Source of the DNA: Flavobacteriales bacterium UBA5871
Lineage (GTDB): Bacteria; Bacteroidota; Bacteroidia; Flavobacteriales_D; Crocinitomicaceae
Direction: 5' to 3'
Assembly: GCA_002432085.1 (NCBI GenBank)
Contig: DJFN01000251.1
Coordinates: 13,276-19,292 of the forward strand
DNA: 6,017 nucleotides
The position numbers and the translations under genes are program-made. The first letter of the stretch is position 1. Each line of letters opens with the position of its first letter. Below, piece by piece: positions 3,049-6,017 of this stretch. The notes below the pieces were generated by a model. That model saw only the letters and a program-made list of their open reading frames with translations. It did not search any database and was not told the origin of the DNA.

Positions 3049-4224
3049 TTATTCAAACACATTTGCTGCCGCAGCCGGCTGATCGGATTGCTGACGCTGC
3101 GCAATTCCCTGGACAATCCCGATGGAAACGCACGCCATGATCATCGCCGATCCTCCCATGGCCAAAAACGGCATGTTCTGGCCTGTCACCGGGAAAATCC
3201 CCGTGCAGACCATCATATTTACTGCTGCCTGCGACAACAACAGAATGCCGATGCCGAGACAGATATAGGTTTCAAACAAGTTCTCCGCCCGAAGTGCGAT
3301 CCGCATGATCCTGTAAAGCAGAATCAAATAGAATAGCACCAGGAAAACGGCTGCTATCAATCCGAATTCTTCCACGAACGAAGCGAAAAAGAAATCGGCG
3401 TAGGCTTCCGGAATGAATTCCTTCACTTTTCCGTTCCCGACGCCCTGACCGAGCAATCCGCCGTGGTAAATGGCCTGCTCGGCGTTATTAGCCTGCAGGT
3501 TGCCCGGCGCATCGATATCGGAGGAATTATCGTAGCGGTTCGTGATACGGTTCATCCACGTTTCGTAGCGCGGAAGGATGTTGAGGTCCGGCAAAGCCTT
3601 GTGTACACCGACGACCATAAAAAAGAGCAGAATTCCGCCGCAAACAACCGTGAGCATTTTCCCGATCGGCACCCGACCGAGGAACAGCAGTATGAAGCAA
3701 ATCATAAACATAATGGCCGCCGTTGAGAAGTTATCTTTCACAATCAATCCACAAATAATCACAATCGGCGCCATGATCGGCAGGAATCCGTCTTTCCACG
3801 AATGCAGCAATTCCCGTTTCTTGGTGAGCAGACGGGCGAGGTATATCAATAAGGCCAGCTTGGCAAAATCCGAAGACTGGAAGGTCAGTCCCACAAACGG
3901 AATCTTCACCCAGCGGCCGGCTTCGTTTACTTTCGTTCCGAAGAACAAGGTAAAGATCAGCAGGGCGATGGCGGCGTAGAAGATGATCTTCGACATCCGC
4001 GATATGTATTTCGGATCTTTCTTGTGGACCCAATACATGGCCAGAACTGCCAGAACGATGTAAATAAAGTGCTTAAACAGGTATTTGAACGGCGTTCCTC
4101 CTTCCATCTTCACGAGGATAGGCACAAAGCTGTATACGCTCACCAGCGAGAAGCCGAGGAGGATCAGCGTGAGCACCCAGATGACGAGGTCGCCTTTGAA
4201 ATATTTCTGTATAAACTGAATCAT
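3049..4224 (-). CDS. ftsW: Septal peptidoglycan glycosyltransferase FtsW (SEDS family)
   Basis: Polytopic inner-membrane SEDS protein that polymerises lipid II into glycan strands at the septum together with a class B penicillin-binding protein (FtsI). The 391 residues contain about ten hydrophobic segments, starting near 14-34, 49-65 and 80-96, and end in a short polar tail. Family landmarks are TFQSSDFAKLALLIYLA (114-130, the usual QPSE-type motif), DNFSTA (164-169), the extracytoplasmic loop ending PEAYADFFFA (272-281) and PVTGQNMPFLAMGGSA (345-360). D277 in PEAYAD matches the catalytically essential aspartate of SEDS polymerases (E. coli FtsW D297 by motif). FtsW is preferred over RodA because of the dcw context. 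The start overlaps the stop of the preceding small gene (ATGA) and has no Shine-Dalgarno motif, so it is probably translated by coupling. Variants such as QSSD and AMGGSA probably reflect lineage rather than loss of function. Confidence 0.96.
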   Translation of the reverse strand: MIQFIQKYFKGDLVIWVLTLILLGFSLVSVYSFVPILVKMEGGTPFKYLFKHFIYIVLAVLAMYWVHKKDPKYISRMSKIIFYAAIALLIFTLFFGTKVNEAGRWVKIPFVGLTFQSSDFAKLALLIYLARLLTKKRELLHSWKDGFLPIMAPIVIICGLIVKDNFSTAAIMFMICFILLFLGRVPIGKMLTVVCGGILLFFMVVGVHKALPDLNILPRYETWMNRITNRYDNSSDIDAPGNLQANNAEQAIYHGGLLGQGVGNGKVKEFIPEAYADFFFASFVEEFGLIAAVFLVLFYLILLYRIMRIALRAENLFETYICLGIGILLLSQAAVNMMVCTGIFPVTGQNMPFLAMGGSAMIMACVSIGIVQGIAQRQQSDQPAAAANVFE

Positions 4225-4691
4225 TTAGTACCGTTTAAGCGAACGAACGCTTCAAAATCCGCCAGTTTGGTTTTCCATTCGTTTCCTGCCACCGTGAACA
4301 GCAAAATGTGCTTCGCCTGTTTCACCGATCGCAGGATGGTTATTGTTTCTTCCAGGGTTTCCGTTGCTGTAAGCAAACGCATTGGTCCCATCACATCGCC
4401 GGGAATGCTGATCTGCGCACAGTCGTATTGTCCGCACCAGGCCAGCGAGCGCATGCTTTCCGGATCGACCTGCGACAGCTCCTTTATCAGCTCTTCGTTG
4501 CCGAGCCAGAATACAGGGAACGGGAACGTCGTCAGCGTAGCCGAAAGCTCATTCACCGACGGATTGTACCAGGCAAACACGTCCATACCCCACAGCTTGC
4601 CCAACGGGCGCAATGAGTGGCTTTCAGCCTGTTTCAGGCCTTCCTGACGTGCAGCCAGCAGACGGTTGTCCGTTACCTTGGTGTTTTCCAT
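4221..4691 (-). CDS. Small protein resembling a degenerate MurD C-terminal domain
   Basis: I do not recognise this 156-residue protein by name. It is soluble-looking, with no signal peptide or membrane segment. From residue 25 to about 150 it tracks the C-terminal domain of the adjacent MurD (MurD numbered from the window edge): H25/H303, L27/L305, K32/K310, G35/G313 without a gap, then V46-N47/V325-N326, L53/L332, P59/P338, VFWLG (60-64) over VWIVG (340-344), G87/G370, and an ungapped stretch A109/A390, E114/E395, R121/R402, K124/K405, LL 130-131/411-412. The order of predicted strands and helices also agrees. The catalytic motifs are gone: DSKATN becomes WYNPSV-like, there is no DKG, and SPACASFD becomes TVAGNEWK-like. 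There is no P-loop or central domain. It lies 6 bases after murD and overlaps the ftsW start by 4 bases. Inference: a non-catalytic paralogue that may bind or regulate a Mur ligase. Real coding status is supported by the tight fit between its neighbours. Confidence 0.85.
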   Translation of the reverse strand: MENTKVTDNRLLAARQEGLKQAESHSLRPLGKLWGMDVFAWYNPSVNELSATLTTFPFPVFWLGNEELIKELSQVDPESMRSLAWCGQYDCAQISIPGDVMGPMRLLTATETLEETITILRSVKQAKHILLFTVAGNEWKTKLADFEAFVRLNGTK

Positions 4692-4697
4692 GACGGC

Positions 4698-6017
4698 TTA
4701 CAATGAGCGTACGGCTTCCTTGAACTGATTTCCGCGGTCTTCGTAGTTTTCGAACAGGTCGAAGCTCGCACATGCAGGTGAAAGCAGAACCGTTTCCTCT
4801 TTTTTCGCCAGGCGGTAACCGTAAGCAACGGCTTCCATAGCCGAGCTGGCCTCCACGATCGTTTCCACCACTCCGGAGAAGGTGTCGATGATCTTGCGGT
4901 TGTCTTTGCCCAGGCAAATGATCGCTTTCACTTTTTCCTTCACCAGCTCGAGCAGCTCGGTGTAGTCGTTGCCTTTATCGACGCCGCCCACGATCCATAC
5001 CGTAGGATGTTCCATGCTTTCGAGCGCAAACCACGTAGAGTTCACATTCGTCGCTTTGGAATCGTTGATAAATTCAATTCCGCACACCTTGGCTACGAAT
5101 TCCAGTCGGTGTTCCACATTTACAAAGTCGGACAGACTTTCGCGCACTATTTCCTTGCGGATATCCAGCAGACGACCGGTGATTCCGGATGCCAGCGAGT
5201 TTTGGGTATTGTGCTTCCCCTTCAGAGCTAGTTCGTGAATAGACATAGAGAATTGATTGTTGTTAACGTTTATGATGAGTTGCTTGTTTGCTGTATAACC
5301 GCCCTTTTCGAGCGTTTTTGTGAGCGAGAACGGATACTGCTGCGCAGCGATCGTCCGCCCGGCGATTTCTTTCATGATCAGCGCGTCGTCTGCATTGAAA
5401 ATGAAATAGTCGGCTTCTGTCTGGTTTTGCAGGATGCGAAATTTCGAGTTCACGTAGAGCTGCATGTTGTATTCGTAGCGGTCGAGGTGATCCGGCGTGA
5501 TGTTCGTCAGGATCGCGATCTCGGCCTTGAAATCTTCCATATCGTCGAGCTGGAACGAGCTGAGCTCCAACACGTAGATTTCCTTGTCTTCCAGCGCCAC
5601 CTGCTTCGCGAAGCTGTAGCCCACGTTGCCCGCCAGTCCTACGTTCATCCCGGCTTTCGTCAGCATGTGGTGAATGAGCATCGTGGTCGTCGTTTTGCCG
5701 TTGCTGCCCGTGATGCACACCTTTTTCGCCGTCGTGAAGTAGCCTGCGAATTCGATCTCTGAAACGACCTTGATTCCTTTTTCGCGAATGGCTTTCATCA
5801 CCGGCGCTTTTTCCGGAATGCCCGGCGATTTCACCACGATATCGGCCGCCAGAATGCGTTCCATCGAATGCGCGCCCTGCTCCCACTCCAGTCCGTGTTC
5901 GTCAAGCTCCTGCTGAAACGACGGCTTGATCGTGCCGAAATCGGAAACGAACACGGACGCACCTTTCACTTTCGCGAGGATGGCCGCTCCGACACCGCTT
6001 TCGCCGGCGCCCAGGAT
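4698..6017 (-). CDS. murD: UDP-N-acetylmuramoyl-L-alanine--D-glutamate ligase MurD (5' end outside window)
   Basis: Cytoplasmic ligase that adds D-glutamate to UDP-MurNAc-L-Ala using ATP. The open frame runs to the window edge, and 439 residues are visible. The first is already inside the Rossmann motif (ILGAGESGVG, 1-10), so only a handful of N-terminal residues are missing; an internal GTG at 5969 is not the true start. Landmarks, numbered from the edge: P-loop GSNGKTTTT (104-112), LELSSFQLD (150-158), TNITPDHLDRY (171-181), K192 in NSKFRIL (matching the carbamylated lysine of E. coli MurD K198), GKHNTQNSLAS (267-277), then the C-terminal domain with HRLE (303-306), NDSKATN (318-324), GGVDKG (344-349) and SPACASFDLF (413-422). 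All expected functional motifs are intact. The stop is six bases before the next start, so the two genes are surely co-transcribed. Confidence 0.97.
   Translation of the reverse strand: MLGAGESGVGAAILAKVKGASVFVSDFGTIKPSFQQELDEHGLEWEQGAHSMERILAADIVVKSPGIPEKAPVMKAIREKGIKVVSEIEFAGYFTTAKKVCITGSNGKTTTTMLIHHMLTKAGMNVGLAGNVGYSFAKQVALEDKEIYVLELSSFQLDDMEDFKAEIAILTNITPDHLDRYEYNMQLYVNSKFRILQNQTEADYFIFNADDALIMKEIAGRTIAAQQYPFSLTKTLEKGGYTANKQLIINVNNNQFSMSIHELALKGKHNTQNSLASGITGRLLDIRKEIVRESLSDFVNVEHRLEFVAKVCGIEFINDSKATNVNSTWFALESMEHPTVWIVGGVDKGNDYTELLELVKEKVKAIICLGKDNRKIIDTFSGVVETIVEASSAMEAVAYGYRLAKKEETVLLSPACASFDLFENYEDRGNQFKEAVRSL

Follow-up and report, generated by a model that had tools for sequence, protein, structure and literature searches.

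A free-standing relative of the MurD C-terminal domain encoded between murD and ftsW in Crocinitomicaceae, a candidate non-catalytic partner of the Mur ligases

The window analysed here is a 6,017-nucleotide stretch of contig DJFN01000251.1 from Flavobacteriales bacterium UBA5871, and between murD and ftsW it carries a gene, here called X, for a protein of 156 amino acids. From its predicted structure and from profiles of its relatives, X is a relative of the C-terminal domain of MurD and is predicted to have kept the fold. Most of the residues with which MurD holds its ligands have been lost and the gene is maintained by selection. We suggest, with somewhat less than an even chance of being right, that X is a non-catalytic docking partner that goes back to an old duplication spread across the Bacteroidia. 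Loci, genomes, proteins, genera and families are cited below by handles beginning with L, G, P, g and f, respectively.

The relationship to MurD had been proposed in a first-pass annotation on the basis of a hand alignment, which proved right in substance. A profile of 63 relatives of X aligns collinearly with full-length MurD over 127 columns (probability 84, E 7.2e-6 for a single comparison), beginning at the final helix of the central domain of MurD and ending where the SPACASF region begins. The controls for this profile gave 0.19 when it was reversed, 0.16-0.62 for ten column shuffles and 0.23-0.49 with FtsW, MurG and MurC as targets. The best fold matches of the X structure predicted by AlphaFold2 (AF2) are the C-terminal domains of Mur ligases, over nearly the whole length of the protein. 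In the N-terminal helix, L11 and R15 are common to X and MurD, and R15 is also, with W62, near-invariant in the motif of the X family.

Profile searching had been named as a check: the profile of relatives finds MurD, but the window protein alone has zero matches in Pfam, NCBIfam and PDB sequences, which speaks against simple detection. A search with the X protein gave 89 sequences including the window's own, of which 48 were aligned (set A1); where relatives of the protein and its locus carry names, these are Fluviicola and Crocinitomicaceae. The A1 members have only weak matches to unrelated families in Pfam, PF02875 (Mur_ligase_C) not being among them, the best match of the A1 profile in the PDB is a designed protein (E 0.69), and a PDB sequence search with the distant member P0105 returned no match. 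A profile restricted to Fluviicola misses MurD (E 0.3 in one comparison, 0.17 against a broader MurD profile), and a 54-sequence survey set without divergent members matches MurD weakly (probability 23.6, E 8.6e-4) and the broader MurD profile with a probability of 89.4. Because both the window protein and the Fluviicola-only profile fail to detect MurD, the similarity needs relatives or a structure model in order to be seen. The PF02875 cut-off of 28.4 bits is not reached, g4-type relatives peaking at 16.7 bits (P0094), and neither is the 211.95-bit cut-off of TIGR01087, which describes the whole of MurD; X, at 156 amino acids, has no NCBIfam match, and five Crocinitomicaceae-type relatives match TIGR01087 at positions 295-440 of 441 only (33.5 to 42.5 bits). 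A hidden Markov model built on the MurD C-terminal domain recovers 14 of the 173 sequences of the family below 0.01, but not the window's own, and single-sequence blastp of family members against MurD is of no use below about 1e-4 (best decoy 4.2e-4).

X is thus like the MurD C-terminal domain (PF02875, TIGR01087) in predicted fold and in a collinear alignment that takes in the last central-domain helix; it differs from MurD in its length, which leaves no room for the N-terminal domain or the central P-loop domain, and in the ligand residues. When 58 X and 56 MurD sequences are aligned together (leaving out L053, which was cut by frame choice, and four g7 rows), R302 is present in every MurD and in one X (L080). 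D317 is found in 55 of the 56 MurDs, the remaining one reading as the letter X at this column, and in none of the 58 free-standing proteins, 54 of which have Trp there; K348 is likewise present in 55 MurDs and in 0/58. T321 is kept in one X, K319 in 18 and the serine of SPAC in 14, and the glutamate loop is shorter. The window copy carries H, S, W, N and I at the columns of H301, R302, D317, K319 and K348, and the alignments confirm that its DSKATN, DKG and SPACASF motifs are all replaced. In the available parts of the two papers concerned, R302 is described as a handle for rotation of the MurD C-terminal domain, within the hinge loop 294-304 (PMC4816537), and inhibitors that mimic glutamate are described as contacting K348, T321, S415 and F422, with K348 binding their carboxylate (PMC3527612). 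Mean conservation of X is 2.69 bits in residues 25-65, 1.35 in residues 66-104 and 1.67 in residues 105-156. MurD has the same peak, less sharp, over the same three stretches (3.78, 3.13 and 3.35 bits), so that the contrast at residues 25-65 is only partly special to X.

We estimated the ratio of non-synonymous to synonymous change (dN/dS) by the pairwise Nei-Gojobori method in 12 genomes of the window's genus (66 pairs), with synonymous sites near saturation and the values accordingly rough. The median for X is 0.048 (32 usable pairs, maximum 0.407), as against 0.035 for murD (45 pairs) and 0.032 for ftsW (27 pairs). These values clearly oppose neutral decay and agree with the earlier statement that X is not a decaying pseudogene. 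Among the more widely distributed copies described below, the median is 0.04 (22 pairs), compared with 0.099 for fragments corresponding to the MurD C-terminal domain (25 pairs).

Orthologues of X, which the first-pass annotation had proposed to collect, occupy the same place in related genomes. When 40 genomes were searched in full, the window's genome and 15 relatives each had a single copy, in every case between murD and ftsW. G002, the only genome of the window's genus in this search to lack X, likewise gives no murD match at E 1e-80, and its assembly is probably incomplete there. A survey of the region upstream of ftsW in 119 of 120 Crocinitomicaceae genomes (G070, in which ftsW is cut, was left out) found an X-profile match (E below 1e-6) before ftsW in 76 genomes and in 14 of 24 genera, or in 66 genomes without the doubtful g7 and g12. 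L061, L065 and L084 were dropped since a wrong or short frame had been picked. The g7 open reading frames (ORFs; L088, L092, L094 and L099) encode about 150 amino acids, lie in the same place and have an N-terminal helix motif resembling that of X. Of 38 named loci, 34 have murD upstream and ftsW downstream, three are without an adjacent murD and one starts at a contig edge. Records titled Glaciecola amylolytica, Chryseobacterium gleum and Chitinophaga pinensis (L115, L122 and L128) carry this gene order, and their titles look mislabelled. In genus g26 (Taishania pollutisoli and two others) X stands directly before ftsW, with murD either about 6 or 9 kb off on the same contig or on a different one; in the T. 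pollutisoli locus a 611-residue frame lies upstream of X, where murD would be (L148:1018-2850). Where X is not found, murD ends at most 102 nt from ftsW in 42 of 43 genomes and 191 nt from it in one.

Judged by sequence matches, the scope of the first-pass annotation is too narrow, and the family spans many families of the Bacteroidia. A profile of g4 and L022 sequences found P0114, a free-standing MurD C-terminal domain of 176 amino acids (E 1.9e-10 in 5.8 billion proteins; NCBIfam murD 2.6e-37). In 55 of the 295 Bacteroidia genomes searched with P0114 at E 1e-25, from 16 families, there were at least two matches, and in all 55 one match lies inside a frame of 156 to 241 amino acids. This count, picked by eye from the match listing, is a lower bound, the threshold missing eroded copies like the window's. 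Among 58 wider loci, murD, copy and ftsW are present in full in 51, murD is cut by the contig end in one more, and two end before ftsW; in G306 (f54) the copy keeps ftsW without an adjacent murD, which is on another contig. Within the window's order, a copy was found in 16 of 40 loci of the other families, which with the window's own brings the families that have one to seven (f1, f2, f3, f4, f8, f10 and f11). Two different copies stand in tandem between murD and ftsW in seven of these 16 loci (L185, L188, L192, L193, L195, L206 and L218). In L200 (f3), another of the 16, the copy is split between two neighbouring frames, of 83 and 93 amino acids (1859-2389), and is possibly broken. The remaining three of the 58 wider loci are extra copies away from the mur cluster, with the cluster copy also present, and lie at L233:1715-2392, L234:1962-2519 and L270:1854-2504 (coding-strand frame coordinates). 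Outside the class, 89 genomes of the phylum (of 118 drawn) gave no second match or short frame at E 1e-15.

The A1 profile matches 80 copies from other families with a probability of 95.5 (E 1.3e-8) and MurD with a probability of 70.3 (E 4e-5). The 54-sequence survey set behaves similarly (96.9, E 1.3e-10, against the copies; 89.4 against MurD), as do 12 Fluviicola-group sequences (84.5, E 6.9e-6, against the copies; 0.3 against MurD), and shuffled controls reached 0.057 at best, and 0.049 against the free-standing copies. X is therefore closer to the free-standing copies than to MurD, and by these matches is a divergent Crocinitomicaceae form of the Bacteroidia family, among its most eroded members. 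The proposal that X arose by partial duplication survives insofar as X is related to MurD, but it does not appear to be a private copy of the neighbouring murD. In 81 free-standing copies, one of them from the window's family, H301 is kept in 69, R302 in 52, E304 in 74, D317 in 69, K319 in 49, T321 in 60, the SPAC serine in 77 and the last loop Phe in 61 (Tyr in 15). The tracked residue lost most often is K348 (15 copies, with Arg in 17 others), hinge-side H301, E304 and D317 being mostly kept. R302, D317, K319, T321 and K348 occur together in ten copies, every one of them from family f24. The description 'catalytically dead' is thus apt for the residues of the window copy, but not for those of every copy; by their length, the wider copies are likewise too short for a P-loop domain and none should ligate alone.

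These copies probably stem from one old duplication shared across much of the Bacteroidia and later lost in many lineages, an origin that the trees favour without proving. A careful tree was built from 42 MurD rows and 43 rows of free-standing copies. The window sequence had diverged too far to be included, and the L022/L287 copy and two g4 copies stand for its family; the wider alignment omits the murD of L257, which is cut by the contig end, and both of the frames into which L200 is split. All MurDs form one clade (90/91, minimum one change), and it is this separation that favours a single duplication. Many separate duplications of the 3' end of murD seem unlikely as the source of the family, given this 85-row tree and the nearer profile match of window-type X to the copies than to MurD. 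They would nonetheless accord with approximately unbiased (AU) tests, which reject neither a grouping of f24 copies with f24 MurDs (p 0.41) nor one of f22 with f22 (p 0.106), and with a quick tree of 185 rows, which has one change between MurD and copy but in which constrained trees scored above the free tree, the mark of a poor search. This alternative bears on the origin of X and not on its function.

As to function, X would dock where a C-terminal domain would sit, either on MurD itself or on proteins in contact with it. X retains the predicted fold, the helix leading to the central domain and the hairpin on the hinge side. The face formed by the N-terminal hairpin and the hinge side may contact the body of a Mur ligase, or MurG; X could then alter ligase closure or hold a ligase near FtsW, and in this way tie precursor supply to the septum. 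MurG and MreB have been reported to bind MurD (PMC4816537; for MurG also PMC6420597, both in the parts available). More speculatively still, the MurDs of many Bacteroidia may be multi-part machines in which an ancient second C-terminal domain (in some families a third), made separately as a non-catalytic subunit, couples D-glutamate ligation to septal synthesis driven by FtsW.

Several observations weigh against such a docking role. X was not found in 43 of the 119 Crocinitomicaceae genomes and the copy is absent from all 20 f9 loci, in three of which murD is non-adjacent, so that its role is dispensable or replaced; at least 11 changes between presence and absence fall on a MurD tree of 115 rows. 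An AF2 model of the most divergent ORFs at this place, those of g7 (12 sequences, predicted local distance difference test score 81), matched no Mur ligase. The inference of a docking face is itself weak, because MurD peaks in conservation in the same stretch, because the wider family often keeps glutamate-side residues (such as T321 and the SPAC serine), and because X itself has lost the nucleotide-side R302 and D317. Finally, X stays with ftsW when murD leaves, which speaks against a simple MurD subunit.

The same behaviour makes an adaptor of the divisome, in which the C-terminal domain fold serves only as a scaffold that binds FtsW or MurG, with no action on MurD, the strongest rival to the docking partner, although we regard it as doubtful. 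X has remained directly before ftsW in two separate lineages with a non-adjacent murD (the three g26 genomes, and G306 in f54), and an ATGA overlap with ftsW is seen in 14 of 63 X genes. Contact cannot be read from gene order, however, and in most loci X follows murD equally closely, while L236 and L276 have a gap of several hundred bases before ftsW. It is rather improbable that the copies with less erosion act as sensors through retained binding of D-glutamate or a muramyl peptide, a role that the window copy would have lost: D317, T321 and the SPAC serine are indeed widespread in the 81 copies, and the ten f24 copies with all five residues adjoin MurD in the quick tree, but K348, the carboxylate contact, is rare in the wider family and absent from the window type. 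That X is the degenerating remnant of a duplicated murD, and is translated for no other reason than its place in the operon, is very improbable. Its patchy presence, fast divergence and one relative split in two frames (L200) could be read in this way, but the median dN/dS, far below 1, already contradicts it, as do the conserved motif with its two near-invariant residues and the open frames in many families.

Literature searches on a free-standing MurD C-terminal domain, and on scaffolds and dead paralogues, found no description of such a protein among the papers listed. In MurT, which contributes to amidation, a central domain of the ligase type is retained. X differs from the MurT/GatD system (PMC6085368, as far as available; structure 7q8e) in having no such domain. 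Dead paralogues that control a live enzyme do exist, as the accessible text on the prozyme of trypanosome AdoMetDC describes (PMC5201418); like X, the prozyme has been preserved by selection as the inactive paralogue of a working enzyme, but its complex with its partner has been shown, whereas X is one domain only and its partner is putative. The scaffolding of Mur ligases by MurG is similar in the idea that cytoplasmic Mur enzymes are physically brought together at the membrane, and differs in that no dedicated non-catalytic subunit derived from a Mur enzyme is described in the available part of that account (PMC6420597). Whether the cytoplasmic Mur ligases form a complex is open; a 2016 paper states, in the part available, that there was no evidence to date of one (PMC4816537), and X, its family under strong selection beside ftsW across many families of the Bacteroidia, is a natural candidate for a subunit of one. 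If the multi-part reading holds, it would add a layer of control over peptidoglycan precursors that model bacteria lack. The graded series of copies, from those that keep the tracked residues to the fully eroded, is useful for asking by what route a domain of an enzyme may turn into a module for binding proteins, and the family marks genes that sources name as whole ligases or as hypothetical proteins (P0105, P0114).

Table 1. Coordinates of X, its parts and its neighbours in the window.
Feature	Positions	Strand	Basis
X, free-standing MurD C-terminal domain relative, 156 amino acids	4221..4691	-	ORF, AF2 model, fold matches, homologues, profile matches
Overlap of X stop and ftsW start, ATGA	4221..4224	-	window sequence
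X N-terminal helix, residues 5-24, motif L-x3-R-x3-L	4620..4679	-	secondary structure; aligns with last MurD central-domain helix
X residues 25-65, first beta-hairpin, then helix and strand; LRPxGKLWGMDVFxWxNP...FPFPVxW	4497..4619	-	aligns with end of MurD hinge and DSKATN region
Trp41 codon of X, column of MurD Asp317	4569..4571	-	joint X/MurD alignment
X residues 105-156; counterpart of MurD loop SPACASFDLF about six residues shorter	4224..4379	-	alignments
murD (start beyond window)	4698..6017	-	Pfam Mur_ligase_M 6.1e-30, Mur_ligase_C 1.4e-13, MurD-like_N 4.3e-8
ftsW	3049..4224	-	ORF frame; named by sequence and gene order; match in 120/120 family genomes

The X frame runs on the minus strand, which the first-pass annotation had not given, from an ATG at 4691 to a TGA at 4223-4221. 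It is intact, and its stop is fused to the ftsW start as had been described, the TGA overlapping the ATG. The murD stop is separated from the ATG of X by 6 nt, and the order of genes along the minus strand is murD, X, ftsW, murG, murC.
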